Assembly (NCBI GenBank): GCA_026874595.1
Contig: CM049317.1
Span: forward strand, 35,368,901-35,432,900
Direction of reading: 5' to 3'
DNA from: Sipunculus nudus
Taxonomy: Eukaryota > Annelida > Sipuncula > Golfingiida > Sipunculidae
Length of the DNA stretch: 64,000 bases
The position numbers were made by a program, and so were the translations under genes. Under the pieces are notes generated by a model. The model saw nothing but the letters and a program-made list of their open reading frames with translations, did not search any database and was not told the DNA's origin. Positions 61 to 63,480 of the stretch are shown one piece after another (the stretch's first letter is position 1; every line of letters begins with the position of its first letter).

Positions 61-1588
61 CCCTGAGGTATCTTTCCCTTTATCACTGATGCCAGACGGG
101 GCCTTGAACATTTCATGGTACATCAGGAAATAGACATATAAATATAATTTTACTTCTGATTACAGTGTTTAAGGAGGTTAAATAAATTGCAAACTATTCA
201 AAAAGCCGGCATATATAAGAATGTTACATCGTCAAAGAATCTGTGTGTTTGGTATTTGCTTTATGCGATATCTTGGCCCATTAAGACGATATATGAACAA
301 AATTGAATATTGGATTATCATATCTTTCGTGCTATCAAATAAAGCATATTTTTAATCCTTATTACAATTCCAAGAGAAAGATTTTTTTCAGAGTTTATTT
401 TCGCAAATAACCTCAGAATTTTTATTATCTTAACTAGTCAATATTCTCATGTGATTATAATAAGTATTACCTTTGGTGAATCTCTTGAGTTTCCATTGAG
501 GGTGGAAGAAACTTGTAAAATGTCTCTTAGCTCTCTAATTTTTTTTGGCTGTTTGAAGTTAAGAGAAACACGAAGGAAAAGAAAGTAGGTTGCCCATTGA
601 GAAAAAGAATATATATGTGTGTGTGTGTGTGTGTGTAGAAATATATATAAATGAAGTATATAATACCCTGTGGAATAAAAAAAAGGGTAATGGATAGTAC
701 ACTGTTTATTAGACTTAACCTTAAATGCCTTTGAGCTAAATAGGTCTTTATGGCAACATAACAATGGCCGTTTTCTACATTGTTAGAATTTCCACTACCT
801 CCACTATTGAGTGGTTTGAACATTGTTTAAAACCATCGTCCAAATAACATAACCCTTGAACCTGCCAATATTTTTTCGAGAAATTTGACATATAAATTTT
901 TCCATCAAAACCTGAGATGAGTTCGTTAATTGTTGACCTTCCGCTTCATCTTCAAGATCAAATCTTAAGAATTCTAGAATATTTGTGAACTCCATAATTA
1001 CGTTTTCTCCACATTTAAAGGAATGGGATCCCTAGCCAAGGGAAACATATATATGTTTTGTAGCAGCAAAACAAACTCATTCTTGTTTACATATGCCTTG
1101 AATTTTATAAACATTTTAAGTAGTCATGATGTATTTAGTGATTCAGAAATAATAACATTCAACGTATAACGAAAATGTACACAAGAAAAACAGATCAATT
1201 ACCTAACCATGTTAAGCTTGGGAAATATTGAGAAAATAATATTCTACAGGTCAACTGACTTGAGGGTGAACGTGTTTCTAAAAAATCATAAACCAAAAGC
1301 ATGAGCCACTAATATAATTTTAAAAAAATGTTTTACCTTAGAAGTTTGCTTCCCTCTTTCGTTGGAGTCAGAATAACCTGCGTAAGCACTGCTCCAGTTT
1401 TCTGGTTTTCTCACGGGTATCTGTGTGTTTGGAACACGAAATACGAAGAGTCAATACTGGTGACATGTGGTTGTGGAATAAGAAATAAATTCCTTATAAA
1501 CCTCTCACCTTTGAAGCATGATAACTATTTTCATTCATGACAGATCCAAGGGAATAACCAGCAATCCTTCTGATCTCCTTTCAGGTGC
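61..1588 (-). CDS. Modular small-exon family gene, copy A1 (3' end outside window)
   Basis: Unrecognised gene family; function unknown. Exons in transcription order: IV 1509-1588 (ATG at 1538, coding 30 nt, MNENSYHASK), III 1337-1420 (84 nt, ends YSDSNERGKQTSK), II 471-548 (78 nt, PKKIRELRDILQVSS..., ends RDSPK), and a decayed exon I from 61 to about 121. Borders are AG|exon|GT: III is preceded by cacacag and followed by gtaaaac; IV is followed by gtgaga. Every intact exon is a multiple of three in phase 0. Exon I has lost about 23 nt and its acceptor, so it would have to be skipped, which keeps the frame. Exons V and VI would lie left of the window. Seen: open frames and splice motifs repeated in other copies. 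Inferred: that they form one transcript. Confidence 0.6.
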
Positions 1589-3390: not shown

Positions 3391-4398
3391 TATTCCTGAT
3401 ATTTCCTTTGTACATTTCATCGCTTTATTACCTCATATGTATCCATGTTTTCTTCTGTGACGTTATAAGATCCTTCTAACCTTATGTCGTGCGCACTTCC
3501 GCTTGATACCTGTTAAATTGAAATACGAAAATGTCATTTGTCAATTCAAATGCTGCTCGTAGATGAAACATGCACTCAACAAAAAGCAAACGGCTAATAT
3601 CCTTCCGCATACGTTCCTACACTGTGACACGGTGATACTGATATAACGTATATCTAAGGCGTTGATGTCCAGATGAGTTCTTAGGTCTATCGGGTTTCCT
3701 TATGCACGATTAATAAATGGACCACGTTTAAAGTTCCTATGATTTGGCTCCTCAACCATCGGGGGGGGGGGGGGACACATATTGTTTAGCGTATCGTCGT
3801 CCGAATATCAAAAAGAATAGCATGGATAGAGCACTGTTTATTATACTTAACTTAAAATGTCTTTTGAAGTAGGTAGATAGGCCACTGTGGCAACATACCA
3901 AAGGCCATTTTTCACATTTTATACTACCTGGTTAAAACATTGTTTAAACAATAACATAACAAATAACATAACCTTTAAAAACCCATTGATTTTTCGTGAA
4001 ATATGACAAAAATTGTTCCACCAAAATCTCAGATGAGTTCTTAAACTGGCGACCTTTAGCTTAATCTTAAGGTCAAATCTTCAGAATTCTTGGATTTTGG
4101 TGAACACCATAACTTCTTTTCCTCACATTTTACGGATGGGGACCCATAGGGAGAGGAAAAAATTTCGGGTTTCCAGCAACAAAAAAAAAGTGGTCATGAT
4201 GTATTAAGAGATTCAGAGATCATATCACTGTATGACAAAAAAGTACACCAGAGTAACAGATTAATTACCTTGCCATGTTAAGCTGTGAAAAAATTGAGAA
4301 AATAATATTCTACAGATCAGCTGACTCTGATGTACTTGTACTCAATAAAACATCATGAACCAAAAGTTTTAACTAATATAATTAAAAAAATGCTTTAC

Positions 4399-4651
4399 CT
4401 TAGAATCATGTTTCCCTCTTTCGTTAGAGTCAGAAGAACCATCGAAAGCTTTGCTCGAGTTTTCTGATTTTCTTACAGGTATCTGTGTGTTTGGAACACG
4501 AAATACGAAGAGACAATGCTGGTGACATGGGGGTTATAGTATAAGAAATAATTTCATTATAAACCTCTCATCTTTGAAGCATTATAACTTTTTTCATTTA
4601 TGAGAGACCCGGGAAAATTACCAGCACTCCTTCTGATTTCCATTCAGGTAT
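4399..4651 (-). pseudogene. Modular small-exon family, truncated copy B1
   Basis: Exon III (4399-4482, 84 nt) is intact and in frame (IPVRKSENSSKAFDG, then SSDSNERGKHDSK) with cacacag acceptor and gtaaag donor. Exon IV (4572-4651, 80 nt) is broken: the start codon is ATA and the donor GT is AT. Exons II, I, V and VI are missing because the copy is cut at about 3830. Non-functional as a unit, yet exon III is clean, which suggests recent loss or gene conversion from other copies. Confidence 0.6.
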
Positions 4652-9006: not shown

Positions 9007-11350
9007 CTATGCTTCCGCACAAAGAGAACGAAATTTGTTCATCCGTTTCAGAATGCCCTCAGCCACAGTAAAGTAAAATAGTCGCCTTTCTCTAATAGAA
9101 GACAACATATCTTTGGTAAACCCGATTTTCACGACCTTCCTTTCATAAGGCTTAGTCCTCCATCCATATTTATGTGCTTTAATGTCATGAGGAAAATCAG
9201 TGAACACTTTTTTTAAGTCATCACCTTACAAAATTTGTCTACGGTGGTCGTGCAACTACTGTATTGAAAACGTAGGATTGAGACTTTCAGTCTGAGGATA
9301 CAAATAAAAGACGAATACCGGTTTTACAATGAGAGGACACAAAAGTAACTGCTTTTTAATTCTGATCAAGGTCTCTAATGACATAAAGAATAATAAAGCC
9401 ACCCTTCTTCCTAGAAATTATATATTTTCATTGAAAATATGTCATAGTCATACCTTGGACGCATATCTGGATTTTCTGTCTACGATGGGACAATCTTCTG
9501 TCGACTTGTTAACACACTGCCCAGTTATCTGTATTTTCCAAAAAGGAACGGGTGAAAGAGTACGTTGCACCTACGGTCAACAGCATGATCAAAATGGCTT
9601 TGATAGTATTTTAGCCAAAATCTCCGTATGCACAAAATGCCCCTAACAAAGACCAAAATTTTGAAGATTTTTATCCATATCAGTCAATTAATTGACGTTA
9701 GGGTTTTTTTCTCATTTTCACGCATTATTTCTGATTATCTTTCTTGTTCCGGTGTATTAAATTCAAAATGAAGAGATATTTCTGGATATATGTGTGTAAA
9801 AGTATTTTCAACATATACCACTCACCCCTGAGGTATCTTTCCCTTTATCACTGATGCCAGACGGGGCCTTGAACATTTCATGGTACATCAGGAAATAGAC
9901 ATATAAATATAATTTTACTTCTGATTACAGTGTTTAAGGAGGTTAAATAAATTGCAAACTATTCAAAAAGCCGGCATATATAAGAATGTTACATCGTCAA
10001 AGAATCTGTGTGTTTGGTATTTGCTTTATGCGATATCTTGGCCCATTAAGACGATATATGAACAAAATTGAATATTGGATTATCATATCTTTCGTGCTAT
10101 CAAATAAAGCATATTTTTAATCCTTATTACAATTCCAAGAGAAAGATTTTTTTCAGAGTTTATTTTCGCAAATAACCTCAGAATTTTTATTATCTTAACT
10201 AGTCAATATTCTCATGTGATTATAATAAGTATTACCTTTGGTGAATCTCTTGAGTTTCCATTGAGGGTGGAAGAAACTTGTAAAATGTCTCTTAGCTCTC
10301 TAATTTTTTTTGGCTGTTTGAAGTTAAGAGAAACACGAAGGAAAAGAAAGTAGGTTGCCCATTGAGAAAAAGAATATATATGTGTGTGTGTGTGTGTGTA
10401 GAAATATATATAAATGAAGTATATAATACCCTGTGGAATAAAAAAAGGGTAATGGATAGTACACTGTTTATTAGACTTAACCTTAAATGCCTTTGAGCTA
10501 AATAGGTCTTTATGGCAACATAACAATGGCCGTTTTCTACATTGTTAGAATTTCCACTACCTCCACTATTGAGTGGTTTGAACATTGTTTAAAACCATAG
10601 TCCAAATAACATAACCCTTGAACCTGCCAATATTTTTTCGAGAAATTTGACATATAAATTTTTCCATCAAAACCTGAGATGAGTTCGTTAATTGTTGACC
10701 TTCCGCTTCATCTTCAAGATCAAATCTTAAGAATTCTAGAATATTTGTGAACTCCATAATTACGTTTTCTCCACATTTTAAGGAATGGGATCCCTAGCCA
10801 AGGGAAACATATATATGTTTTGTAGCAGCAAAACAAACTCATTCTTGTTTACATATGCCTTGAATTTTATAAACATTTTAAGTAGTCATGATGTATTTAG
10901 TGATTCAGAAATAATAACATTCAACGTATAACGAAAATGTACACAAGAAAAACAGATCAATTACCTAACCATGTTAAGCTTGGGAAATATTGAGAAAATA
11001 ATATTCTACAGGTCAACTGACTTGAGGGTGAACGTGTTTCTAAAAAATCATAAACCAAAAGCATGAGCCACTAATATAATTTTAAAAAAATGTTTTACCT
11101 TAGAAGTTTGCTTCCCTCTTTCGTTGGAGTCAGAATAACCTGCGTAAGCACTGCTCCAGTTTTCTGGTTTTCTCACGGGTATCTGTGTGTTTGGAACACG
11201 AAATACGAAGAGTCAATACTGGTGACATGTGGTTGTGGAATAAGAAATAAATTCCTTATAAACCTCTCACCTTTGAAGCATGATAACTATTTTCATTCAT
11301 GACAGATCCAAGGGAATAACCAGCAATCCTTCTGATCTCCTTTCAGGTGC
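9007..11350 (-). CDS. Modular small-exon family gene, copy A2
   Basis: Exons in transcription order: IV 11271-11350 (start codon at 11300, MNENSYHASK), III 11099-11182, II 10236-10313, decayed I from 9826, V 9454-9528 (75 nt, ITGQCVNKSTED..., ends SRYASK, donor gtatga), VI 9007-9291 (acceptor tttgtatcctcag). Skipping exon I leaves an open frame of 30+84+78+75+36 nt, ending at TAG 9256-9258 (100 codons plus stop). Compared with gene C, a 1 bp loss at the start of exon VI (GAAAG for GAAAAG) shortens the tail. Exon VI also holds a separate 66-codon open frame (9007-9207, ends LCAEA). No signal peptide or membrane segment. Function unknown. Confidence 0.55.
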
Positions 11351-12410: not shown

Positions 12411-14155
12411 ATATGTTTATATATATATTTATATTTATACAATTATGGTGGCTACACTAACTATAAGAGATCGCTTGCAATTCATTCTTTCTCATTGTCT
12501 ATATGTATACCCCCATACGGTTCAGTACAGTATACCATAATTCACATATCTAAAATTCTAAACACTGCTATACAGCGCCATAGATCTCAGTATTGACAAT
12601 CTATTGAATTGAGACATACAATGAACATATCAAATTCGGCAGGAAGGTAGAGACCTTGGGTTCCTAAAATAGATAATATGGCCAATCATTATTTTATATT
12701 ACGGTAAATTAAAAAATCTAGATGTAGTCGGACAATGGTCCTCAGAGGGCCCCGTATTTCTAGTAACAAGCTGGACTAGTTTATATACGGGAAATAAGTT
12801 TAGTTGTTTGTTTTTAAATATGACTGACCGACAGGTTTTTCTCATTATGCTTGAGGAAACAAAAATCCTACTCCTTCAAATCATTTTGAAAGAGGATATG
12901 TCTGAAAAAAAATTGTGTGCAAGACAAACTCACGGATTGTACTCTGTCGGCCATATTGGAATTCCGACAGGTGTGTAATTCTATAGGTCTTGAGTAACAA
13001 ATCATCCCTGAGTAAGAGAAAAACCAAGTATGTTCTTGTTGAGATATCGCGCGCGACAGAAAGCATCACGGACGGAAGTACGGATGAACTGACGGACGGA
13101 TCACTGACACGGTGAGCACTATAGGGCACCGCTCTTCAAGCGGGGCCCTTAATATTCCTGATATTTCCTTTGTACATTTCATCGCTTTATTACCTCATAT
13201 GTATCCATGTTTTCTTCTGTGACGTTATAAGATCCTTCTAACCTTATGTCGTGCGCACTTCCGCTTGATACCTGTTAAATTGAAATACGAAAATGTCATT
13301 TGTCAATTCAAATGCTGCTCGTAGATGAAACATGCACTCAACAAAAAGCAAACGGCTAATATCCTTCCGCATACGTTCCTACACTGTGACACGGTGATAT
13401 TGATATAACGTATATCTAAGGCGTTGATGTCCAGATGAGTTCTTAGGTCTATCGGGTTTCCTTATGCACGATTAATAAATGGACCACGTTTAAAGTTCCT
13501 ATGATTTGGCTCCTCAACCATCGGGGGGGGGACACATATTGTTTAGCGTATCGTCGTCCGAATATCAAAAAGAATAGCATGGATAGAGCACTGTTTATTA
13601 TACTTAACTTAAAATGTCTTTTGAAGTAGGTAGATAGGCCACTGTGGCAACATACCAAAGGCCATTTTTCACATTTTATACTACCTGGTTAAAACATTGT
13701 TTAAACAATAACATAACAAATAACATAACCTTTAAAAACCCATTGATTTTTCGTGAAATATGACAAAAATTGTTCCACCAAAATCTCAGATGAGTTCTTA
13801 AACTGGCGACCTTTAGCTTAATCTTAAGGTCAAATCTTCAGAATTCTTGGATTTTGGTGAACACCATAACTTCTTTTCCTCACATTTTACGGATGGGGAC
13901 CCATAGGGAGAGGAAAAAATTTCGGGTTTCCAGCAACAAAAAAAAAGTGGTCATGATGTATTAAGAGATTCAGAGATCATATCACTGTATGACAAAAAAG
14001 TACACCAGAGTAACAGATTAATTACCTTGCCATGTTAAGCTGTGAAAAAATTGAGAAAATAATATTCTACAGATCAGCTGACTCTGATGTACTTGTACTC
14101 AATAAAACATCATGAACCAAAAGTTTTAACTAATATAATTAAAAAAATGCTTTAC

Positions 14156-14408
14156 CTTAGAATCATGTTTCCCTCTTTCGTTAGAGTCAGAAGAACCATC
14201 GAAAGCTTTGCTCGAGTTTTCTGATTTTCTTACAGGTATCTGTGTGTTTGGAACACGAAATACGAAGAGACAATGCTGGTGACATGGGGGTTATAGTATA
14301 AGAAATAATTTCATTATAAACCTCTCATCTTTGAAGCATTATAACTTTTTTCATTTATGAGAGACCCGGGAAAATTACCAGCACTCCTTCTGATTTCCAT
14401 TCAGGTAT
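14156..14408 (-). pseudogene. Modular small-exon family, truncated copy B2
   Basis: Near-exact copy of B1. Exon III 14156-14239 is intact in frame with both splice signals. Exon IV 14329-14408 lacks the start codon (ATA) and the GT donor (AT). Exons II, I, V and VI are absent. Confidence 0.6.
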
Positions 14409-18767: not shown

Positions 18768-21112
18768 CTATGCTTCCGCACAAAGAGAACGAAATTTGTT
18801 CATCCGTTTCAGAATGCCCTCAGCCACAGTAAAGTAAAATAGTCGCCTTTCTCTAATAGAAGACAACATATCTTTGGTAAACCCGATTTTCACGACCTTC
18901 CTTTCATAAGGCTTAGTCCTCCATCCATATTTATGTGCTCTAATGTCATGAGGAAAATCAGTGAACACTTTTTTTAAGTCATCACCTTACAAAATTTGTC
19001 TACGGTGGTCGTGCAACTACTGTATTGAAACCGTAGGATTGAGACTTTCAGTCTGAGGATACAAATAAAAGACGAATACCGGTTTTACAATGAGAGGACA
19101 CAAAAGTAACTGCTTTTTAATTCTGATCAAGGTCTCTAATGACATATAGAATAATAAAGCCACCCTTCTTCCTAGAAATTATATATTTTCATTGAAAATA
19201 TGTCATAGTCATACCTTGGACGCATATCTGGATTTTCTGTCTACGATGGGACAATCTTCTGTCGACTTGTTAACACACTGCCCAGTTATCTGTATTTTCC
19301 AAAAAGGAACGGGTGAAAGAGTACGTTGCACCTACGGTCAACAGCATGATCAAAATGGCTTTGATAGTATTTTAGCCAAAATCTCCGTATGCACAAAATG
19401 CCCCTAACAAAGACCAAAATTTTGAAGATTTTTATCCATATCAGTCAATTAATTGACGTTAGGGTTTTTTTCTCATTTTCACGCATTATTTCTGATTATC
19501 TTTCTTGTTCCGGTGTATTAAATTCAAAATGAAGAGATATTTCTGGATATATGTGTGTAAAAGTATTTTCAACATATACCACTCACCCCTGAGGTATCTT
19601 TCCCTTTATCACTGATGCCAGACGGGGCCTTGAACATTTCATGGTACATCAGGAAATAGACATATAAATATAATTTTACTTCTGATTAAAGTGTTTAAGG
19701 AGGTTAAATAAATTGCAAACTATTCAAAAAGCCGGCATATATAAGAATGTTACATCGTCAAAGAATCTGTGTGTTTGGTATTTGCTTTATGCGATATCTT
19801 GGCCCATTAAGACGATATATGAACAAAATTGAATATTGGATTATCATATCTTTCGTGCTATCAAATAAAGCATATTTTTAATCCTTATTACAATTCCAAG
19901 AGAAAGATTCTTTTCAGAGTTTATTTTCGCAAATAACCTCAGAATTTTTATTATCTTAACTAGTCAATATTCTCATGTGATTATAATAAGTATTCCCTTT
20001 GGTGAATCTCTTGAGTTTCCATTGAGGGTGGAAGAAACTGGTAAAATGTCTCTTAGCTCTCTAAATTTTTTTGGCTGTTTGAAGTTAAGAGAAACACGAA
20101 GGAAAAGAAAGTAGGTTGCCCATTGAGAAAAAGAATATATATGTGTGTGTGTGTGTGTGTAGAAATATATATAAATGAAGTATATAATACCCTGTGGAAT
20201 AAAAAAAAGGGTAATGGATAGTACACTGTTTATTAGACTTAACCTTAAATGCCTTTGAGCTAAATAGGTCTTTATGGCAACATAACAATGGCCGTTTTCT
20301 ACATTGTTAGAATTTCCACTACCTCCACTATTGAGTGGTTTGAACATTGTTTAAAACCATAGTCCAAATAACATAACCCTTGAACCTGCCAATATTTTTT
20401 CGAGAAATTTGACATATAAATTTTTCCATCAAAACCTGAGATGAGTTCGTTAATTGTTGACCTTCCGCTTCATCTTCAAGATCAAATCTTAAGAATTCTA
20501 GAATATTTGTGAACTCCATAATTACGTTTTCTCCACATTTTAAGGAATGGGATCCCTAGCCAGGGGAAACATATATGTGTTTTGTAGCAGCAAAACAAAC
20601 TCATTCTTGTTTACATATGCCTTGAATTTTATAAACATTTTAAGTAGTCATGATGTATTTAGTGATTCAGAAATAATAACATTCACCGTATAACGAAAAT
20701 GTACACAAGAAAAACAGATCAATTACCTAACCATGTTAAGCTTGGGAAATATTGAGAAAATAATATTCTACAGGTCAACTGACTTGAGGGTGAACGTGTT
20801 TCTAAAAAATCATAAACCAAAAGCATGAGCCACTAATATAATTTTTAAAAAATGTTTTACCTTAGAAGTTTGCTTCCCTCTTTCGTTGGAGTCAGAATAA
20901 CCTGCGTAAGCACTGCTCCAGTTTTCTGGTTTTCTCACGGGTATCTGTGTGTTTGGAACACGAAATACGAAGAGTCAATACTGGTGACATGTGGTTGTGG
21001 AATAAGAAATAAATTCCTTATAAACCTCTCACCTTTGAAGCATGATAACTATTTTCATTCATGACAGATCCAAGGGAATAACCAGCAATCCTTCTGATCT
21101 CCTTTCAGGTGC
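18768..21112 (-). CDS. Modular small-exon family gene, copy A3
   Basis: Exons in transcription order: IV 21033-21112, III 20861-20944, II 19997-20074, decayed I from 19587, V 19215-19289, VI 18768-19052 (phase-0 stop at 19017-19019). Unlike A1 and A2, the exon II donor is GG, not GT (CCAAAG|GGAATA), so II is probably skipped or retained with the intron. Because all exons are phase 0, skipping II and I still leaves IV-III-V-VI in frame. The 66-codon second frame in exon VI is present (18768-18968). Either a shorter isoform or an early pseudogene. Confidence 0.5.
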
Positions 21113-24000: not shown

Positions 24001-24006
<6 letters not shown>

Positions 24007-24425
24007 CGAAATTCCACCACACTAAGCGAATACATTTGGAAAATAAAGGACTTAAATGTGCAATATACCATACAATGGAAGATAATCAGCAAAGCCAGAG
24101 CGTACTCCACATCATTCCATGTTCGGAAGAAAAGTACTTTATTATTCATAAACCCTTATTATGCACTCTCAACAAAAGAAATGAAATCGCAGCGACATGC
24201 AGGCACAGGTCAAAGCACCTGCTGACCAACTACAAATCCCCTGGATCAAGTATAAGGAGCCCCGACAAGACCACTCAGTGTTCCTGACGAGTGAGGGCCC
24301 GTAAGGGCCCTTACGAAACAGAGCTGTCGAACACAAGTAAGTGTGTTTAAGTCCTGAAATATATGTATTACATCTCCTTGTATTAGTTGAGCACTTTAAA
24401 ACCCCATGGTTTTGTAACAATCTGG
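24001..24425 (+). pseudogene. Penelope-like element, 5'-truncated 3' fragment
   Basis: Begins abruptly at a (TA)n tract inside the GIY-YIG endonuclease region: frame fragments [18 protein letters not shown] and YTIQWKIISKARAYST match 55567-55680. A deletion and frameshift after ARAYST break it. Its 3' non-coding part, including a hammerhead ribozyme, matches the tail of the larger element at 53731-56006. Truncation from the 5' side is usual for target-primed insertions. It sits between gene C's last exon and the upstream spacer. Confidence 0.8.
24278..24334 (+). ncRNA. Type I hammerhead ribozyme in Penelope-like tail (copy 1)
   Basis: Core CTGACGA at 24284-24290, GAAA at 24315-24318 and cleavage triplet GTC at 24326-24328. 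Stem I: GTGTTC (24278-24283) pairs with GAACAC (24329-24334), 6 perfect bp. Stem II: GTGAGGGCCC pairs with GGGCCCTTAC around loop GTAA, with one wobble pair. Stem III is short, ACAG/CTGT with a 2 nt loop AG. Hammerheads with short stem III are known in Penelope-like elements and retrozymes. Predicted cleavage after 24328. Confidence 0.85.

Positions 24426-24492
<67 letters not shown>
24421..24492. repeat. Microsatellites (TA)n and (GA)n
   Basis: (TA)n at 24426-24452 passes directly into (GA)n at 24453-24491. Open frames across this stretch (SLSLSL and YIYIYI) are artefacts of the simple repeat. Confidence 0.95.
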
Positions 24493-24494
<2 letters not shown>

Positions 24495-25002
24495 AACCCC
24501 AAAATTAGGACCTTCCTTGGGACTGAGCAAAGTGGAGCACAACTAGACAATAGAAGGTAAGACCCGGGGGCTGTAGTGAGCTGAGCTAAATAAATGTGAC
24601 CCACAGTTACACACGTGCACAATTTTAAATAAAGACGTCTAAAAATAAATGTGATTAATATCTATACGTGAAACAAAGAAAATACTAACAGAGAAATGTG
24701 ATATTTTCTGAGATTGTTATAAAATTTTAAATGAATAAAGGATAAATCCGTTCCATTGGAAATGTTTATTGCCACAATTTAATATAACCAATATCTATGC
24801 TTCCGCAAAAAAGAAAGAAATAATTTGTTCATCCGTCTTTGAATGCTCACAGCCACAGCAAAGTATCATCAGTTGCCGGTCTCTTATAGAAGGCAAAATA
24901 TATTTGGTAAACCCGATTTCACGACCCCCCTTTAAATAAGCCTGGTCCTCTCACCTTTATCTATATACTAAAATCAGTGAAAACAATGTTTTAGTCATTA
25001 CT

Positions 25003-26969
25003 TTACAAAATTTGTCTGCAGTGGTCGTGCACTACTGTATCGAAACCATAGTATTGAGACTTTTCAATCTGAGGATAAAAATAAAAGACGAATATCTGTT
25101 TCACATAGAGAGGATACTAAAGCAACTGATTTTTAATTTTATTAAGGTCTCTAATGACATATAGAATTATAAAGTCATTCTTTTCCCAAGAAATTATATA
25201 TTTCATACATAATATATATCATAGCCATACCTTGGACGCATCTCTGGATTTTCTTACCACGACGGAACAATCTTCTCTCGACTTGTTTATACCCTGCTCA
25301 GTTATCTATATTTTCGAAAAAAAAGGAAGGAATAAAAGAGCACGTTGCACTTCCGGTCAACAGCATGATCAAAATGGTCTTGATAGCACTAAACAAGAAT
25401 CTCAGCATGCACATAATGCCCCTAACACAGGCTAAATATTCTAAAGATTTTAACCCATTAAAATGTGTATAAAAATAAATATTATAAGGTACCTCTGGAT
25501 ATAAGTGAGTGAGAGGAAGTATTTCTCAAATTTACCACTCACGTCTGAGGTATCTTTCCCTTTATCACTGATGTCAGACGGGGCCTTGAATATTTCACTC
25601 AGTCCGTCTGAATTTTTCTCAAGCACCTGTATATAAGGAACAAGAAATATAAAAATGATATACTTCTGTTTACAATGTGTTAGGAGCTTTAAAAAGTGCA
25701 AACTATTCAAAATACCGGCATATAACAATGCTTCGCTGTCAAAGACTCTATGTGTTTGGTGCGTGCTTTATGCGATATCATTGCCCTGAAGGACAATATA
25801 TATGAATAAAATTGTATATCGGACAGTCATATCTTTCGTGCTATCGAATGATCCTCATAACAATTCTACGGGGAAAAATTTCAGTTTTCAATAACTTCAG
25901 AATTTTTATCATTTGACCTAGTCAATATTCCAATGTGTTTAAAAATTAGAATTACCTTTGGTGAATCATTCGAGTTTCCTTTGAGGGTAGAAGAACCTTG
26001 AAAAATGTCTCTTATCTCACTCTCTGTTTTCGACTGTTTTCGAAGTAAAAAGAAACACGAAGGAAAAGAAAGTAGGCTTCCCATTGAGAAAAAATATATA
26101 TATATATAATATTTTAATACCCTGTGGAATAACATTGCCTATGGCAACATACCAATGGCCATTTTTTACATTCTAAGAATTTCCACTACCTCCATTATTG
26201 AGTGGTATAAACATTGTTTTGAAACCTTAGTCCAAATAACATAAGCTTTGAACCGCCCAATAGTTTTCAAGAAATTTGACATATAAATTGTTCCACCAAA
26301 AATCTCAGATAAGTTCGTTAACGAGTAACCTTCAGCTTCATGTTCAAATTCAAATCTACAGATTTCTAGGCTATTTGTGAACTCCATAACTACGTTTACC
26401 TCACATTTTACGGATGCGGAGCCAGATGGGGGGGGGGGAATATATGTTTTGCAGCAGAAAAACAAAATCATTCTAGTTTATATATGCTTTAAACATTTAA
26501 GTAATCATGACGTATTCAGTTATTCAGAGATCATAACATTCACTGTAAAACAGAAAGTTACACCAAAATAACAGATTAATAACTATGCCATGTTAAGCTT
26601 GAGAAAAATTGAGAATATAATATTCAACAGGTCAGCTGACTTGACAGTGTACGTGTTCAACAAAAACATCATGAACCAAAGTTTAATCTGATATAATTTT
26701 AAAAAAAATGTTTTACCTTAGAAGTTTGCTTTCCTCTTTCGTTAGAGTCAGAAGAACCTTCGAAAGCACTGCTGAGGATTTCTTGTTTTATCACGGGTAT
26801 CTGTGTGTTTGGAATACGAATATGGAGAGTCAATGCTGGTGACATTTGGTTGTGGAATAAGATATAAATTTCTTTTAATCCTCTCGCCTTTGAAGCATTA
26901 TAGCTTTTTTCATTCATGAAAGACCCGTGAAAATTATCAGTTATCTTTCTTATATCCTTTCAGGTATCA
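25003..26969 (-). CDS. Modular small-exon family gene, copy C (most complete)
   Basis: Best model of the family. Transcription order: IV 26888-26969 (start codon at 26917; MNEKSYNASK), III 26717-26800 (IPVIKQEILSSAFEG, SSDSNERGKQTSK), II 25956-26033 (SKTESEIRDIFQGSS, ends NDSPK), I 25543-25626 (VLEKNSDGLSEIFKAPSD, ends GKDTSD), V 25231-25305 (ITEQGINKSRED, ends SRDASK), VI up to 25068 (IEKSQYYGFDTVV, ends RQIL, TAA at 25003-25005). Coding lengths 30+84+78+84+75+66 nt give 138 codons plus stop, all phase 0. Borders are AG/GT except exon IV, whose donor is GC (AAAG|gcgaga), a tolerated minor type. Product is small, polar and rich in S, K, D and E, with no signal peptide. I do not recognise the family. 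A possible non-coding upstream exon is 27082-27116. Confidence 0.65.
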
Positions 26970-28270
26970 CTTTGTTCGTAATAAAATTAAGGGTTTAATG
27001 TTAGGAATAAGGAATTACATGAATAGCGAGATGTTAAAACTGCATTTGAATATAAAATAGATTTTACCAGTTAATACTTACCTTTAAATTTATTACGAGT
27101 GCTATAGCTCTGATACCTATGAGGAGTGTTTACTTTACAATTGACACTGTGATATAATCTCACTGATCATACTGGCATTTTTTTTCCATTATCAAAAAAG
27201 CTGATACATAATGCTTTGAAATAAAATAACTAGAAACGTAGCATCTGAGATGATGTGATATTCCGATTCTCCAGACTTTGGACATACGCACATTTAAAAC
27301 ACATTTCCAAGTACTGCTAAACGCTAAGTAATAACAAGTGGCCTGTGGGCCATGAAGTTAAGCCATATTTGTCATACAAGCGATGCATGTGTTAATTATT
27401 TATCCTTTGATCTGTTGTAAAAATTTTTGTTAAGGAATATTGAACAATCAATAGAATAACATACATCAAGAATTCTCAAAATCAATTCAGTTTGTCAATA
27501 AGCCTTAGAAAATAGGACATGTCGACCACATTTAGGGTTTCCAAGAGGGTTTTACAAATGACTCCTTAGTTGTCAAGTGTATATGTTCAACAGCTACGAT
27601 TTGTGTCCATCTAATTTTAGGGTGCTTAATGCTCATAGTCACAGTGACCAGATATCTGGTTTCTCATGAAATTTTACAGGGACGTCCCTGGATCTTAATT
27701 AAATTAAAATGCCCATTTCCGTCCGTAGCAATTTGTGAAAATATGATATATACGGTGCTCATATAGAATATAGGTCACGATGACCATATCTTGGTTGTCC
27801 AAGAAGCAAATAGAATTTTTACGTTAAGCAAGATGTTTCTTGATCCAACAGTTAAGATCATGGCCATATCTGACTTTTTGGGTATTCAAAATTAGGTTTT
27901 CTGCTCAGAGCGCACATAATATAGGCAATCTTGGGTTAATTTAATTGTTGAAAATTCGGCCGAGACCTCCTTAAATTTTAAGTTAGAAGGTTCTACCTCT
28001 AACCGTTATGATCTGTGGCTATCTGTTTGGTTTTTTTTCTATAGCGCACATTATGCAGATTACAGCGACCTTATTTCAGGATTCAAAGGAGACCTCCAAA
28101 GGGCCTCAATGGATTTTATAATAGCTGGTTCTAGGTCCTACAGTAAAGTTTTGTCAAATGCGTGACAGCCTATGTGTAGGGGAGTAACCCGCAGAATCTA
28201 AGGCTAATTGATACCATTTGTGTCCTGTCTGAATGGCCTGATTCTCAAAACACGTGTTGTGGGTCAGCTT
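26970..28270. other. Upstream region of gene C with subrepeats
   Basis: Conserved 5' stretch to about 27450, including a 35 nt segment at 27082-27116 with acceptor cctcatag and strong donor gtaagt. Then come 150 bp-type subrepeats to about 28260. At 28275 it jumps to sequence equivalent to 8480 onward, so the unit has an internal deletion compared with units 1 and 2. Confidence 0.5.
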
Positions 28271-28585
28271 TTTACATATCTTTTATATATGCAAAGCCCT
28301 GTATGTATAAGTACAAACACAAGTAGATAATGTAATGTACGATCCATTTTTATTTATATTTTCATATTGCTTTAAATGAATTACAGCAAAGTCTTTGCGA
28401 ATATAAACAGTGAGAACGTAATAACGTTTTGAGTCTCAAGCTCACGCAAGTTCACGGATGTTGTTAACGAGACTTACATTTCCTATTGCCCATGTGACTT
28501 TCAGTGAGCTGAGCTAAACAAACATGATGATGTGACCCACACTTAGATACGTGCACAAAATTAAGGAAAACTCGTCTATTAAACA

Positions 28586-39009: not shown

Positions 39010-41067
<2,058 letters not shown>

Positions 41068-48565: not shown

Positions 48566-50570
48566 TGATTTTATGACCTAAATCTATGCTTCCGCAAAAC
48601 AAGAAAGATATTTGTCCATACTTTTTTTAATGCTTACAGCCAAATCAAAGAATCACAGCCACCGATATAGGAGACAAAATAGCTTTGGTAAACAAAATTT
48701 CACGACCTTACGTTATAAGGCTAAGTCCTCTCAACCATAGTTTTGTACCTTAACGTTATGGGGGAAATCATTGAAAATAAAAAAAAACTTTTTTTTTTGT
48801 CATCATTTCACAAAATTTGTCTAAATTGGTCGTCCGTCTACTGTACAGAAACCATAGTATTGAGATTGTAAGGAAACAAATAAAGAACGAATATTTGTTT
48901 CAGAAAGAGAAGAACTACTTTTTCATTTTATCAAGGTCTCTAATGACATATAGAATTATAAAGCCACCCATTTTCCAAGAAATAGTATATTTTCATATAT
49001 TTGTCTGTCCACGATGGAACAATCTTCTCTCGACTTGTTTACACCCTGCCCAGTTATCTATATTTTCGCAAAAGGAACGGATGAATGAACACGTTTCCCC
49101 TTATGATCAACAGTATGATCAAAATGGTTTTGGTAGCATTTAGCAAGATTCTAAACATGCAAATAATGCCCCTAACAAAGAGTAAATATGTTGAAGATTT
49201 TGATCCATGTTTGTCTAATAGTTTATGTCATTTCTGATTAGCTTTCCTGTTCTGATGTATTAAATTAAAGATAAAGAGGAACCTCTGGATATATGAGACT
49301 GTGTAGGAGTATTTTCAACATATAACACTCACCCATGAGGTAACTTTCCCTTTCTCACTGGTGTCAGACGGGGCCTTGAATATTTTCCTCAGTCCTTCTG
49401 ATGTGTTCTCAGGTACCTGTGTATCAGTAACAAGTTATATAAAAAGACAGATATACTTCTGTTTATAGTGTGTAAGGAGAGTAAATTAAATGCAAACTAT
49501 TTAAAACGCCGGCATATATCACAATGTTACACTGTCAAAGACTCTTTGTGTTTGGTACGTGCTTTATGCGGTATCTTTGCCCATAAGGACAATATAGGAA
49601 CAAAATGGTATATTAGATTGTTATCTTTCGTGGTATCGAATAAGCGAAAATTAAGCCTCATTACAATTTTAAGGTATATTCGCAAAAAAACTCAGAATTT
49701 TTTTCGTTCAGCCAGTCAATATTTCCATGTGTTAAAAAAATTAGTATTACCTTTGGTAAATCTCTCAAGTTTCCTTTGAGGGTGGTAGAATCTTGAAAAA
49801 TGTCTCTTAGCTCTCTCACCGTTTTCCGCTGTTTTCGAAGTAAAGAAACATGAAGGAAAAGATATATATATATATATATATGAAATATGTTTATACCTAT
49901 ATATATATATATATATATATATAAATATTAATACCTTGTGGAATAAAAAAGAATAAAATGGATAGGGCACTGTTTATTAGACTTAATTTTAAATGCCTTT
50001 CGAGCTAGACAGGTCACTATGTTAAAATACCGAATGTCATTTCACAAAGTTAGAATTTCGATTACCTCCACCATTGAGTGGTTAAAATGTTGTTTAAAAA
50101 ATGTATACGGTCGTTAAATGGTGAATTTCAGCTTAATCTTGAGGGTAAAATCTTCAGAATTCAAGGATTGTTGTGAACTACAGAACTACTTTTTCCTTAC
50201 ATTTTACGGACGGGGACCCTTAGAGAAGGGAAACATATATCTCTTCTGTATCAGCAAAACAAACTCACTCTAGTTTATATGTGCTAACTTTTTATTGATA
50301 TAATAAATAAATTGTTTACCTTAGAACCATGTTTTCCTCTTTCGTTGGAATCAGAAGAACCTTCGAATGCATTGCTTAAGTTTTCTGGTTTTCTCACGGG
50401 TATCTGTGTGTTTGGAACACATAGAATTAAGAGAAAATTCTGGTGACATAGGGTTAAAGAACAAGAAATAAATTCTTTATATACCTCTCACCTTTGAAGC
50501 ATTGTAACTATTTTCATCATGACCGACCCATGAAAATTACAAGCAGTTCTTCTGATTTACCTTCAGGTAA
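48566..50570 (-). pseudogene. Modular small-exon family, copy E (5' and 3' ends broken)
   Basis: Exon III 50320-50403 (IPVRKPENLSNAFEG, SSDSNERGKHGSK), II 49751-49828 ([16 protein letters not shown]) and I 49333-49416 (VPENTSEGLRKIFKAPSD) are open with intact AG/GT borders. Exon IV 50492-50570 has an extra 1 bp loss, so its ATG is out of frame with III. Exon V (ends at 49057, ITGQGVNKSREDCSIVDR) has lost its donor and last codons. Exon VI has lost its acceptor (AC for AG), and its long second frame is shifted. Probably a young pseudogene, with internal modules still clean. Confidence 0.55.
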
Positions 50571-56504: not shown

Positions 56505-57559
56505 GTCATGACGTATTTAGTGATTCAGAGATCATTACATTCACTGTATTACAGAAAGGCATACCAGAGTTACAGATAATTGAATTACCATGTTAAGCTG
56601 GGGGAAAATGAAAAGATAATATTTTACAGGTCAGCTGACTTGAGAGTGTATTATTCACCGAAAACATCATGAACCAATAGTTTAATTTGATATAGTTAAA
56701 AAAATTGTTTTACCTTAGAACCATGTTTCCCTGTTTCATTCGAGTCAGAAGAACCTTCGAATGCATTGCACAAGTTTCCTGGTTTTGTCTCGGGTATCTG
56801 TGTTTTTGAATACAAAATACCAAGAGATAATGCATGTGACATTTGGTTATCGAATAAGAAATAAATTCCTAATATACCTCTCACCTTTGAAGCGTTATAG
56901 CTATTTTTATTCATGACACACCCGTGAAAATTACCAGCAAGCCTTCTGATTTCCTTTCAGGTACCTCTATGTTCGTAATAAAAATGATGATGTAATGTAA
57001 AGCATAAGGAATAACATCAATATTGAGATGTATGGAATATAAAATAGGTTTTACCAGTTAATACATCCGTTTAAATCTTATTACGAGTGCTATGACGTAT
57101 TCAGTTATTCAGAGATCATAACATTCACTATATTACAGAAAAGGTACACCAGAGTAACAGATTAATTGCATTGCCATGTAAAGCTGGGGGAAATGAAAAG
57201 ATAATATTTTACAGGTCAGCTGACTTGAGAGTGTATTGTTCACCAAAAACATCATGAACCAATAGTTTAATCTGATATAGTTAAAACAATTGTTTTACCT
57301 TAGAACCATGTTTCCCTGATTCATTCGAGTCAGAAGAACCTTCGAATGCATTGCACAAGTTTCCTGGTTTTGTCACGGGTATCTGTGTTTTTGAATACGA
57401 AATACCAAGAGATAATGCAGCTGACATTTGGTTATCGAATAAGAAATAAATTCCTAATGAACCTCTCACCTTTGAAGCGTTATAGCTATTTTTATTCATG
57501 ACACACCCGTGAAAATTACCAGCAAGCCTTCTGATTTCCTTTCAGGTACCTCTATGTTC
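56505..57559. repeat. 585 bp tandem duplication carrying exons III and IV
   Basis: 56505-57090 repeats from 57091 with exon III at 56714 and 57299 and exon IV at 56885 and 57470, exactly 585 bp apart. The rest of the second copy continues after the foldback element at 61421. Few differences, so it is younger than the family. Confidence 0.85.
56714..57549 (-). pseudogene. Modular small-exon family, copy F (duplicated front, no 3' exons)
   Basis: Transcription order: IV 57470-57549 (MNKNSYNASK), III 57299-57382 (IPVTKPGNLCNAFEG, SSDSNESGKHGSK), IV' 56885-56964, III' 56714-56797 (IPETKPGNLCNAFEG, SSDSNETGKHGSK). All four keep AG/GT borders. IV' contains stops in its first part and would have to be skipped internally. 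III and III' would then join in frame and give two modules in series. Exons II, I, V and VI are absent; the Penelope-like element starts about 700 bp downstream. The foldback element lies 10 bp before the acceptor of IV. Confidence 0.5.
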
Positions 57560-57603: not shown

Positions 57604-57980
57604 AATATCGCGTTCCCTCGCGATCTTTTCGCGTTCCCTCGCGATCTTTTCGCAATCCCTCGCGATCTTTTTCGCGTTCCCTCCCGATAATATCGCATTG
57701 CCTCGCGATCTTTTCGTGTTCCCTCGCGATCTTTTCGCGTTCCCTCGCGATCTTTTCATGTTCCCTCGCAAATTTTTTGCGTTCCCTTGCGATCTTTTGC
57801 ATTCCCTCGCGATCTTTTCGCGTTCCCTCGCGATCTTTTCGTATTCCCTCGCGATAATATCGCGTTCCCTTGCTATCTTTTCGCGTTCCCTCGCGATCTT
57901 TTCGCGTTCCCCACTGATCTTTTTCGCGTTCCCTCGCGATAATATCGCGTTCTCTAGCGATCTTTTCGCGTTCCCTCCCC
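57604..57980 (-). repeat. 21 bp minisatellite, left arm of foldback element
   Basis: About 17-18 units of gatcgcgagggaacgcgaaaa (minus strand; unit shown in parts: gatcgcgaggg, aacgcgaaaa) and variants with gatattatc. Since 21 is divisible by three, several strands and frames stay open (REREKIA on one strand, AFPRDLF on the other). These are not taken as genes. Confidence 0.9.
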
Positions 57981-58132
57981 CAATATCTGGCATACATGCA
58001 AATAAATGGACGCGGGAACCAGTACAACAGTTTACTGTGTCTCGTTCCTTGTGTCTTTAACACCACTACGCTCAAATAAGATATACGCTCGATGTCAGGT
58101 CAACACAACGATGCTTGTATAAGATTAGCTTA

Positions 58133-58420
58133 GTAAAATGATTAAATATGCAGATGACACAGCGACCTTAGGTGTCATTTCTGATGACAATGAATTGCCT
58201 TATAGGCAAGAGATATTATATCTGACTAAATGTTGTCAATCATAATCTTCTTTTAAATGATGAAAAAAAGACAAAGGAAGTTTTATTCGATTTTAGGAAA
58301 GGGTGTAATGTAGTTATTAAATTGTGTATCAACAATGTTGGAGTTAAGATTGTTAAAAATCATAAGTACCTTGCTACAATTATTCAGGATGATCTCAAAT
58401 GGTCTGATAACATATATGTA
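58133..58420 (+). pseudogene. Reverse transcriptase fragment of a CR1/Rex/Jockey-like LINE
   Basis: Starts MIKYADDTATLGVISDDNE, the catalytic YADD box and following conserved stretch. It continues across frameshifts with KKDKG / KTKE, DFRK and KYLATIIQDDLKWSDN, as in the RT thumb region of these LINEs. Only about 290 bp, ending near (TA)n at 58430. It lies inside the core of the foldback element. Confidence 0.6.
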
Positions 58421-58423
58421 TAA

Positions 58424-58429
<6 letters not shown>

Positions 58430-58468
<39 letters not shown>

Positions 58469-59095
58469 TTAAATGTTTTTATTAATATTTTATATCTTTT
58501 TCTTTTACCTGACATGAAATTAATATTAGGCCAGATTCTATCAAATACTTAAAATACTGGACACAGTTCATCTTGGAAAATTGATACTTCGACAGTCAAA
58601 ACTATATATAAACATATATATGTATACATGTATGTATGCCTCATGCCCCACATATCTGCTGTTTATTATTATGGGTCCTCGGCCACCCGGAGATATGTGC
58701 AAACCGGTGTTTAAGATGATCTAATTGATCTGGAAACAACCTAAAACATACTTTAAATAATCGGAATGTCTTAAAATTATAAGATTTGCTATATAGAAAT
58801 GACGCCTTCGTTGTTGGTCTTATTATTTTATTAAAGAAACACAATATATCCCATATGCCGATTATATTTAATAATAATGTCATCTTAGTACATACATACA
58901 TTTTCAGGCATTTTTATCATATATTTATCATCTTTCCTTCTAATATTTCTTCATTTAAAATTGCGGAAAATTTAACAAATGATTCTCTATTAAAATCCGC
59001 ATGAAATAATTCTATGAAACAAAATGTTAACCGTTATTATTAATTGATTGTTTGTGTGTAATATCTCTCTGAAGATGGTGTAAGAGACTGAAATA
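58430..59095. other. Foldback core: (TA)n and AT-rich DNA, no gene
   Basis: (TA)n at 58431-58464. Open frames at 58641-58901 and 58786-59004 overlap on opposite strands, have no recognisable domain and no second copy here. Confidence 0.4.
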
Positions 59096-59099
59096 GACT

Positions 59100-59330
59100 G
59101 AAATGGGAAGATCGTTCTCGCCGGACCTGCTTCGGGGGTTCGACCCAGCAATAGGATAGATAACTCGCAAGTGCAGTGGTCATCGGGCCTGGTTACCGCC
59201 AGAAAAAAAAATCAGAGGAAGCGTGCGATAATGTCGTGTCACGTAATCCGAAAGCGGACTGGAATTCTGCAGATGTTTATATTAAAATATTGAAAATGGT
59301 GGCGGTTACCTCCATAAAAAAAATCTTTAA
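59100..59330 (+). mobile_element. SINE fragment, body and 3' domain
   Basis: Shares with 31980-32345 the ordered phrases gtgcagtggtcatcgggcct, gaggaagcgtgcgataatgt, gactggaattctgcagatg and gtggcggttacctcc. The tRNA head is mostly lost (a B-box-like ggttcgaccc at 59137). Nested in the foldback core. Confidence 0.6.
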
Positions 59331-60950
59331 TAAAAGAGTAATTGTAAATGCCAAAAGTTAAGATTGCAAATGTCAAACTCGGAAGGAGGCACAACAATCC
59401 AAGAAAATGTCCACCTGGCCCGTACTAATTAAAAGTCAAGAAACAGGGCCCATATATCAAAATTAGCAGTTTTTATTCTCATTCTCTAAAGGTCGGTTAT
59501 ATGCTTCATTTGTTTATCGACTGGCAATTGAAGAATGTGTTGGTCCTCCCAGGGCACACTTGTGGTTTTGTATTCACTGATGTGGGGTCGGCAAATAATA
59601 TAATTATTTTTGTTTCTTAATGGAGAACCACATTTATAAATATACATTAATGAGACAAGGTAGGTATAAAATGATCCAGTGTAAAATAACCCTCTGGATA
59701 CTGGAATATCTGCATACAAGTGTTTAGTATCAGAAGAAGAACAGAAGAGGCCTAAGGCCAAAAATAATTATGGGACTGTTACAACTGATAATTAATATTA
59801 AACCAACTGATAACGTAATAAATAAATGACCGATAAATTATCACTAACCAATAATGTAATGCGAAGTCAAACGATAATGTAACAGATTTCCCTAGCCGTT
59901 AACGTAAAACAGAATTAATTGGTAAAGTAAAATCATTTCAGTGAACCTGACCAAACCAAATTGGACCTTCCGCATGCTTCTTGGACAATACATGCATTTG
60001 TTAAGCTCAGTTGACCATGGATCATCAGAGCATTAGTGATCACCCCTTGTCTGTCCGAGCACAAATCGGTCTCTTTCGCGTCGCACTTTTCATATCTTGT
60101 ACTATGATTATATAGCACAACTTAGGACATCAAAAGTTCAGAACATAAATTCAAACCAGTTGGGGATCCAGAAATTTCAGAATTTAAGCTTGGGGGGGGG
60201 GGGGTCAATACTGGGTAAGGGTTAAAAATAAAGTTCTAAAATTGCGCATTTAAGTTTTTGTTTTGTGTGTATATATATATATAAATGTCGCGCGCCATCT
60301 TCCGATTTTAAGAAGGACCGACCCAATATCCGATTATGATCTGCCGATGCATTCCTACAGCTTTGAATTGAAAGAAAGAAAGATTAAATAAATAATGGTT
60401 TATCATCTACGAGTATTATAATTTGTATATTTTATGGTATTATGTGTAGATAGAAGCTGATGGGTGGAAAGGAATAAACCTGCAATGGTTCTATACCTTG
60501 TACGATGATTTTTATTTTTTAAATAAATTTAAATAAATTTAAATATTTGTATATTTTTTGTATTTTTTGTCTTTTTTTATGTGTAACAAATGTGTATAAA
60601 ATATGACCAATATCAGTAAATGAACATTGGGAGATGGGCATGTGCAAAGTTGATATTGTTGATTTGGAATTTGGCCTGACCCATCTTAAAATTGGTATGA
60701 ACCAATAATTGACGTGAAAAATATTATCAATTTCAGTCAATTACACCGGGATATGGACCTGATCCAGGTTGTCATTGCTCATCCGTTGTTGGGTCTGACT
60801 GCTAATAAACAAAGAGATAAAATCAAATAAGTTGATAATCTAATTGCTAAAAAAGTAAAAAGAGGTCTGTAAAAATTAAAAATGAATAAATGGGGAACGG
60901 ATAACATATATTAGAAACATGGCAAAAAGTCTGATCTCTCTTATTCAAGT
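59331..60950. other. Foldback core, right part, no gene seen
   Basis: AT-rich with a G run at 60193-60204 and a short (TA)n at 60271. The open frames at 59486-59761 and 60519-60740 have no domain features. Confidence 0.4.
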
Positions 60951-61067
60951 ACAGAACGAGACACAGATAACTGTTGTTCTTGTTCCTGCGTCCATTTTTT
61001 TGTATGCTAGATGTTGTATGCTAGATATAGGGGAGCAGGGAACCAGCTTAGTGATCATTTGTAAGTT

Positions 61068-61356
61068 ATCGAGGGAACGCAGAAAGATCGCGAGGGAACG
61101 CAAAAAGATCGCGAGGGAACGCGATATTATCGCGAGGGAACGCGAAAAAGATCGCGAGGGAACGCGAAAAGATCGCGATGGAATGCGAAAAGATCGCGAG
61201 TGAACGCGAAAAGATCGTGAGGGAACGCGATATTATCGCGAGGGAACGCGATTTTATCACGAGGGAACGCGCTAAGATCGCGAGGGAACGCGATAAGATC
61301 GCGAGGGAACGCGAAAAGATCGCGAGGGAACGCGAAATGATCTCGAGGGAACGCGA
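61068..61356 (+). repeat. 21 bp minisatellite, right arm of foldback element
   Basis: About 14 units of the same 21 bp repeat as 57604-57980, here on the plus strand, with gatattatc, gattttatc and gctaagatc variants. Inner flanks also match in inverse (gaacgagacacag, gcgtccattt). Confidence 0.9.
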
Positions 61357-61420: not shown

Positions 61421-63480
61421 ATGTTCGTAATAAAAATGATGAATTAAAGTAAAGCATAAGGAAAAGCATCATTATTGAGATGTATGGCATATAAAATAGA
61501 TTTTACCAGTTAATACATCCGTTTAAATCTTATTACGAGTGCTATAGCTTTGAAAGCTATGAAGAGTGTTAACTTTACAACTGCCCTTAACTAATATCTC
61601 ACTGATCGAACATTTTTTTCTATTATCAAAAGAACTGATACATGATGCTTTGAAATAGAATTACTAGAAATGTTATATTTGTGTTAAAATGAATATTCAT
61701 GAATTGCTAAACGCCAGGTTATAACAAGTAGCATGTGGACCAAGAAGCTAATCTGAATTTGACATACAAGCAATGCATGTATCAATTATTAATGCGTTGA
61801 TCTATTGTAAAAAAATTGTTGAGGAATGTTGAACAATGGATAGAATGACATACATAAATAGTTCTCAAAATCATGCATTTGTCCACAAGCCTTAGAATAT
61901 GGGATATAACAACCTTATTTAAGATTTCTAAAAGGGTTTTTTTCCAAGTGACTCCCTAGATATTAAGTTTCTTTGTCCAACTGCTACGATTTCTGCCCAT
62001 CTAATTTATTCGGTGCTAGATGCTCATAGTCACAGTAACCAGATATCAGGTTTCCAATGAATTTTTATAGGGACCACGCTGGATCTTAATTTAATTAATA
62101 TTTCCGTATCCCAATGTAGAAATTAGGCAACTATGATATATAAGGTGCTCATATCATGTTTTGTCATATATTTTGTAGAATAAAGGGCGCGATAACCTAA
62201 AATCGGTTGTTCAAGAAGACAAAACAATGACCTCAATTTTTACATCAAGTAAGATTTTTCTCCATCCAACAGTTAAGATTATGTCTGATTTTTTATATTT
62301 TTTATAATTAGTTTTTTTAATTAATTTCAATTGTTTAAGATTTGCACAAGACCTACTTGAATTTATAGTGAGAAGGTTTATACTTCAGAAAGTTATGATC
62401 TGGGCCTATCTGACTTTAACATTATGTTTTTTTTTCTATAACGCACAGAATGTAGTTCAGAGTGACCTAATTTCAGGATTTAAATGAGACTTCCCGAGGT
62501 CCTCCATGTATTTTATAATTACAGGTTCTAAACGCAACAGTAAAGTTGTGTGAACTGCGTGACAGCCTATGTACTGGAGAGTAACTCGCAGAATCTAAGG
62601 TAAATTGACACATTTGGAACACTGTCTAAGTTTGCACCCTACTCAGAATAATGTTTTTTGGCCAGTATCTAAGAATAACTGATACAATTTGCACCTTGCC
62701 TGAATTTGTATCCAGCTCAGAATAATGTTTTTGGCCAGTAAATAGCAGGATATAGATCACCAGTACCTAATTTCATGTTACAATTTCTGCCCTGTTAACA
62801 GAAGAACGGGCGGAAGGACGGACAAAAGGTGATTGGTATAGGTAGAGGAAGTCTCGTTTTATTCTCTATTGAAAGGAGGTAGAAAAGGCTGATTCCAAAA
62901 TACTTCCAGAGACAACCTCATGATAACAACCACAAGTTGTTAGGCAGCTTATCACAGAACACAACGATTCCATACCTTTGAACTTGCCGCCACATAAATA
63001 GAACGGTTATATTATAAGTTTTTCATACACACTTTCAAAACGTTTATCTGTTTATGCTTCATGAGCTGACATTGCTTGGTAAACAAACCATCGCTTTTGT
63101 GTATAGGCTTGAATATATGATTTCATCAAGCTTGATTCATGAAAAAACTTAAAACTTTGTATAGTAATTGATTCAAGAGAATAAAACCCTATATTGAAAT
63201 ATTTGTAATACTGTTTATATATGGTTGGAAAAATGTGTAATATTTGGAATCCGGTAAAAGCTAATTAGCCATCATGCGTATAGCCCAGGCCTATAATGAA
63301 TAATAATAATAATAACAAAAATAATAATTATAACAATAACAATAATCATAATAACAATTACCATAATAATTACGATAAAATAATAATTATAATAACAAAA
63401 ATAATCATAATAATGATATTATTATTATTAATATTCCTATAATTTTGTGAACAGTTAAAGTAAATAATATAGTTTATGAA
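61421..63480. other. Upstream region of copy F right of the foldback element
   Basis: Continues the second 585 bp duplicate (atgttcgtaataaaaatgatg split across the target duplication), then the conserved 5' stretch to 61840, 150 bp-type subrepeats to 62900 ending at gaacgggcggaaggacggac, the shared segment at 62960-63290 and (AAT)/(ATA)-like DNA at 63298-63440. No coding exon found. Confidence 0.5.

Follow-up and report, generated by a model that had tools for sequence, protein, structure and literature searches.

The tandem array found in this region of the Sipunculus nudus genome is best explained, with a probability of about 0.42, as a series of internal repeat exons belonging to one long minus-strand gene, or to a few such genes. 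Comparison of the diverged copies suggested that selection has preserved the reading frame of the four middle pieces of the repeated unit (e1-e4). Most units have suffered losses, and they resemble groups of internal phase-0 cassettes more than complete small genes. The long-gene reading was preferred because the units contain constrained internal exons, while neither a start shared by at least four units nor a frame-kept end was found for them.

Organization of the Array

The window, i.e., the whole stretch of 64,000 nucleotides that was analysed, corresponds to positions 35,368,901-35,432,900 of a 78.6-Mb contig in a eukaryotic assembly of 1.43 Gb and 153 contigs. A further 100 kb was added on each side, giving 264 kb surveyed, and coordinates below 1 or above 64000 are expressed relative to the window. 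Self-alignment revealed a tandem array of approximately 10 units between about -7.3 and +63 kb, all in the same orientation on the minus strand (Table 1). From -7349 onward, the array comprises three copies of a 9.76-kb block (A0/B0, A1/B1, and A2/B2; 99.1-99.7% identity), followed by C, D, E, and an F/G unit that is split and reaches to near 63 kb. Most of the segments that align between different units are 75-84% identical.

Table 1. Positions of exons, units and repeats of the array (window coordinates).
Feature	Position	Strand	Remarks
e1 of unit C, 84 nt, phase 0-0, IPVIKQEILSSAFEGSSDSNERGKQTSK	26717..26800	-	open with both borders in 11/11 copies
e2 of unit C, 78 nt, phase 0-0	25956..26033	-	length kept, open in A, C, D, E
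e3 of unit C, 84 nt, phase 0-0	25543..25626	-	homologous to e1; open with both borders in C, D, E
e4 of unit C, 75 nt, phase 0-0	25231..25305	-	intact in C and three A copies
e0, first exon of the original prediction	26888..26969	-	ATG at 26917, 10 codons
e5, terminal exon of the original prediction	25003..25068	-	frame not conserved
Unit C, whole, by homology to other units	24600..28280	-	self-alignment; non-exon parts ~80% identity
Unit A0	e1 1337..1420; e2 471..548; e4 -311..-237	-	e4 beyond the window
Unit B1, e1	4399..4482	-	
Unit A1	9454..11182	-	e1 11099-11182; e2 10236-10313; e4 9454-9528
Unit B2, e1	14156..14239	-	
Unit A2	19215..20944	-	e1 20861-20944; e2 19997-20074 (donor GG); e4 19215-19289
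Unit D	39494..40902	-	e1 40825-40902 (6-nt in-frame deletion); e2 39922-39999; e3 39494-39577; e4 absent
Unit E	49004..50403	-	e1 50320-50403; e2 49751-49828; e3 49333-49416; e4 truncated near 49004-49057
Unit F	56714..57382	-	e1 twice: 56714-56797 and 57299-57382
Dispersed ~825-bp repeat in upstream block of units (C copy)	27330..28154	.	many contigs, common ends, among the best 40 of 1394 first-look candidates scored
Dispersed element splitting unit F from its upstream part (61489-62616)	57604..61356	.	flanked by inverted 21-bp minisatellites

Dispersed repeats also occur in the array. The element that interrupts unit F is approximately 3.1 kb long and is bounded by 21-bp minisatellites at 57604-57977 and 61070-61356, inverted relative to each other; it has long matches across many contigs, at about 84-91% identity among the best 40 of 1200 first-look candidates. 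Another repeat, located in intron 1, is likewise present inside the units. A transposon was considered as the source of the exons and rejected, since whole-genome protein searches, which score the best candidates only and are weak for exons of this size, gave convincing matches to the modules only in the array, despite the ~825-bp and intron-1 repeats within its units.

Exon Structure of Unit C and Its Relatives

Unit C had been described as a complete gene in which six short exons join into one open frame of 138 codons. This frame was reproduced from six pieces, e0 to e5 (10+28+26+28+25+21 codons), and AG/GT borders were present at all four junctions named (26717/26033, 25956/25626, 25543/25305, and 25231/25068). 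The internal exons, of 84, 78, 84, and 75 nt, are divisible by three and in phase 0, and joining them leaves the frame open, as had been stated. The 138 codons require a 10-codon first exon that begins with the ATG at 26917 and ends at 26888, where the donor in C is GC and not GT. The completeness of this gene was not supported: the start and stop exons lack frame conservation, and no start exon common to at least four units was found. For these reasons, the fact that C is open at both ends may be due to chance.

The same exon set had been said to recur in A1-A3, D, and E, with parts in B and F. This was confirmed only in part, as several of the copies are incomplete. The A copies have a 29-nt deletion across the e3 acceptor, unit D lacks e4, and in unit E e4 is truncated, with both the e4 donor and the e5 acceptor gone. 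The borders of e2 are kept in A, C, D, and E, with the exception of A2, where the donor is GG and the exon also contains two replacement changes. As for the partial copies, only e1 is recognisable in B, and F contains e1 twice. The absence of one or more exons from A, D, and E supports the proposal that the frame survives the loss of exons, and the description of a tandemly duplicated family with short phase-0 exons and an unrecognised product was likewise supported, with no usable Pfam or PDB match. The B units also contain an open AG..GT stretch of 78 nt of their own (VSSGSAHDIRLEGSYNVTEENMDTYE; 3432-3509 and 13194-13271, minus strand), located roughly at the place of e2.

Conservation of e1 to e4

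Counting as intact the cassettes that are open and have both borders, e1 was intact in 11 of 11 copies, e2 in 5 of 6, e3 in 3 of 6, and e4 in 4 of 6, which amounts to 23 cassettes and about 620 codons. In comparison with unit C, an unshifted open frame was observed for e1 in the five units compared (A2, B0, D, E, and Fa), for e2 in A2, D, and E, for e3 in D and E, and for e4 in A2. As background, non-exon windows that are open in C were jointly intact in A2, D, and E in 2 of 341 cases (84-nt windows), 3 of 400 (78 nt), and 4 of 435 (75 nt). The absence of stops is weak evidence on its own, as single comparisons were stop-free in 54-77% of trials in which an equal number of substitutions was placed at random.

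The indel counts relative to C showed 3 gaps in 837 aligned bases of e1-e4 in A0, D, and E, where 19.9 were predicted from the non-exon rate (119 gaps in 5015); comparisons less than half aligned, namely the wholly missing e4 of D, were dropped from this count. The depletion gives a Poisson p of 4e-6, which is rough because the A0, D, and E comparisons all share C. The sole gap lying wholly within an exon is the in-frame one of 6 nt in e1 of D, while the two larger gaps (27 nt in e3 of A0 and 18 nt in e4 of E) run over an exon border and remove it. Splice dinucleotides were kept at 20 of the 21 sites scored in A0, D, and E, as compared to 350 of 615 (57%) background AG/GT (p=2e-4); deleted sites were left unscored in both exons and background, and the lost e2 donor of A2 falls outside the count. 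Substitution rates in exons and introns were, respectively, 0.156 and 0.201 in A0 (p 0.11), 0.171 and 0.242 in D (p 0.02), and 0.152 and 0.227 in E (p 0.006). As judged from these comparisons between diverged units, e1-e4 together were shown to exceed chance, with a constraint of the coding type.

The evidence at the level of residues was less clear-cut. The original prediction had named a dN/dS near 1 across the exons of all copies as an observation that would speak against it; the pooled value was 0.69, with a bootstrap confidence interval of 0.38-1.37 (107 codons, excluding the misaligned e2 and e3 rows of B0 and A0), and the values for e1, e2, e3, and e4 were, respectively, 0.53, 0.88, 1.52, and 1.07. 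Since the interval includes 1, purifying selection on residues is weak or mixed, and present function is unproven; the result neither plainly falls under the refuting observation named in the original prediction nor plainly avoids it.

A prediction-free scan for conserved frames was applied to the upstream part of the unit, using windows covered by at least four other units, so that shorter or less-covered exons may escape it. Among the 60-nt sense windows, 46 of 1261 were intact in every covering unit, all of them inside e1, which was also the sole place recovered in the 75-nt sense scan; the antisense control of the 60-nt scan gave 14 of 1152. With 45-nt windows the two strands were close (119 of 1731 sense and 99 of 1578 antisense). 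In view of the antisense hits and of this closeness, the scan taken alone is suggestive only.

Search for the Ends of the Proposed Gene

In contrast to e1-e4, e0 and e5 are conserved no more than expected by chance and show no coding-type constraint in the alignments. Single-nucleotide deletions affect the putative first exon e0 in D and E, and in B the donor of this exon is AT. The 5' half of e0, read in a frame that was chosen by eye, is similar to e3 (VPE..SEGL..IF; shuffle p=5e-5) as well as to e1 (p=1e-4), while its 3' half has no significant likeness to the modules (p 0.10-0.63). The likeness of the 5' half to e3 suggests a module that was dead before the units split, and e0 is probably intronic or a dead module rather than a start exon common to the units. 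Regarding e5, the acceptor AG is kept in A, C, and D and deleted in E, and the comparison with C revealed 1-nt indels in A0 and D and both a 5-nt and a 1-nt indel in E. Because a terminal exon can tolerate frame changes, e5 is considered unsupported rather than disproved. An AATAAA lies downstream of C, near 24770, and is absent at the aligned place in A, D, and E.

No phase-0 exon running from an ATG to a donor and common to at least four units was found in the upstream part of the unit. Signal-peptide-like first exons were not enriched on the coding (minus) strand, where 6 were counted as compared to 22 for the control strand. Likewise, neither a 5' nor a 3' exon was found beyond the array, and in the rest of the 264 kb a profile search (with e0 included in the profile) recovered no additional module exons that were convincing.

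Encoded Modules

The exons e1-e4 would encode modules of 25-28 residues each. The 28-residue modules of e1 and e3 are homologous (shuffle p=5e-5; p=3.5e-4 with the C versions), and the likeness of e2 and e4 to the other modules is marginal (p 0.03-0.10 with consensus sequences and 0.01-0.15 with the C versions tested). The joined modules are rich in Ser and Lys, and their mean hydropathy falls on the disordered side of the boundary given by the charge-hydropathy formula; the product is thus predicted to be probably disordered.

Database comparison of the joined e1-e5 of unit C gave a best Pfam E-value of 0.23 and a best PDB E-value of 2.3, with none over a family cut-off. When the modules of the array were joined (404 amino acids), five Pfam families were listed, all under their curated cut-offs; the best was RILP (E=5.8e-4; 20.8 bits against 24.8), with no single stretch passing. 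A resemblance to the BRC repeats of BRCA2 was considered and discarded for lack of Pfam support. In protein searches of the whole genome, all 27 matches of a first search and 20 of the 23 of a second fell in the array, the other three having E-values of 3.6-9.8. These searches score the best candidates only and are weak for 28-residue exons, and therefore distant relatives may exist. No published description of this exon family was found among the titles and abstract openings surveyed, which is no proof of novelty.

Interpretation and Alternative Explanations

Under the long-gene reading, an ancestral unit would have contained four symmetric phase 0-0 cassette exons (e1-e4) of 75-84 nt, the cassettes of successive units would be spliced in series into a longer transcript, and unequal crossing-over would duplicate or delete whole units. 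As all cassettes are phase 0-0, any one could be joined to any other, and since none of them disturbs the frame, gaining or losing cassettes would alter only the number of repeats in a Ser/Lys-rich, probably disordered stretch. As a guess, the product may serve biochemically as a linker, tail or matrix protein of variable length. Several results count against this reading, namely the dN/dS interval that spans 1, the antisense hits, the fact that no outer exons were found, the loss of cassettes from most units, and the marginal similarity of e2 and e4. Its strongest form, a giant lineage-restricted gene with at least 23 frame-neutral cassettes and three 9.8-kb blocks that were recently duplicated and are still 99% identical, is put forward tentatively and is on balance unlikely.

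The many cassette losses make a decaying array the main rival, and one to which we give serious weight without favouring it. According to this explanation, e1-e4 were coding while the units diverged, but most or all of the locus has since become pseudogenic, with C open by luck. It would account for the exons lost in A (e3), D (e4), E (e4 and e5), B, and F, for the damage to e2 of A2 (donor and two residues), for a dN/dS indistinguishable from 1, and for e0 as a probable dead module in an array where no start exon was found. It is opposed by the indels of e1-e4, which are far below the non-exon rate, and by the intactness of e1 in all of its copies; together, these two results indicate constraint through most of the divergence.

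The proposal that the array consists of ten small separate genes, with C as a complete six-exon gene that starts in e0 (MNEKSYNASK) and ends in e5, is improbable. The open 138 codons of C are in its favor, as are the e5 acceptor shared by A, C, and D, the tolerance of terminal exons to frame changes, the AATAAA downstream of C, and the existence of GC donors in general; against these stand the frameshifts of e0 in D and E and its non-GT donors in C and B, the frameshifts of e5 relative to C in A0 and D and the loss of its acceptor in E, and the failure to find a start exon common to at least four units. Still harder to sustain is a non-coding tandem repeat whose better-conserved blocks are open by accident: a dN/dS near 1 and the antisense hits would agree with it, but the constraints on frame, indels, and splice borders coincide on e1-e4, leaving out e0, e5, and the introns, and the homology of e1 with e3 is seen at the protein level. 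We consider this last explanation very improbable.

Short repeated exons, such as those used by the array, are known from other systems. Micro-exon genes (MEG) of schistosomes are described as having many short exons, mostly multiples of three, separated by long introns, with exons of up to 81 bp (most of 15 bp) and proteins that share an N-terminal signal peptide (PMC10526429). The array exons resemble these in being divisible by three, but two of the four exceed the maximum of 81 bp given for MEG exons (PMC10526429), and the introns of unit C measure 0.16-0.68 kb. A further difference is that the shared-start and first-exon scans detected no signal exon in the array. The PEVK repeats of titin have about 28 residues and are encoded by frame-neutral exons. 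The PEVK region is described as highly repetitive and exon-encoded, growing and shrinking by exon duplication and loss (PMC6469411). Like both systems, the array relies on short repeated exons; it differs from PEVK in that Ser and Lys, and not Pro, Glu, Val, and Lys, are the commonest residues, and in that its modules were found only at the array locus. Neither of the two Pfam scans of the array modules gave a titin-type match.

If the giant-gene form were true, repeat number and protein length would differ between individuals and by splicing, and protein length would be an evolvable, polymorphic trait. If the cassettes are transcribed, the array would represent an orphan coding family, possibly missed by gene finders given exons of less than 90 nt and no known domain, with exon cassettes caught during duplication and loss. 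Owing to the recent, 99%-identical blocks, variation in the copy number of frame-neutral exons can be tested directly within the species. In addition, comparing indels and frame among tandem copies allows probable true exons (e1-e4) to be told apart from look-alikes (e0 and e5) without RNA.

Genomic Context

Exons resembling C-type lectins, recognised mostly by eye, flank the array at about -41 to -48 kb and at 106.5-107.6 kb (minus strand), the right-hand one containing an in-frame stop. A Pfam scan of 10 lectin-like neighbouring ORFs gave one Lectin_C match, at about -42.9 kb, with an E-value of 0.0011 and below the cut-off; two of the remaining candidates had weak matches to unrelated families and seven had no match. 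A tie between the array and these same-strand exons, located ~34-44 kb away, was considered and is at most tentative, with Lectin_C matched by 1 of the 10 ORFs and under its cut-off.

On the plus strand, an ORF of 230 amino acids was observed at 55118-55810, and a 463-bp piece over its 3' end recurs at 24003-24452 with 92% identity. From its motif, we take this ORF to be similar to a fragment of a GIY-YIG Penelope-like element. Another plus-strand ORF, at -37.9 kb, has a start that by eye resembles a GTPase of the guanylate-binding/atlastin type.

Elsewhere in the assembly, genes for bacterial-type terminal oxidases were noticed on contigs C60-C62, C66, C72, C74, C75, C89, and C123, of which C61 has 2.2 Mb. 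The best 80 of 282 relatives of the C61 oxidase gene are 53-58% identical to it, and the translation from C123 looks, by eye, like a bacterial cbb3-type oxidase. The presence of these genes suggests that several bacterial, perhaps symbiont, genomes are contained within the assembly.
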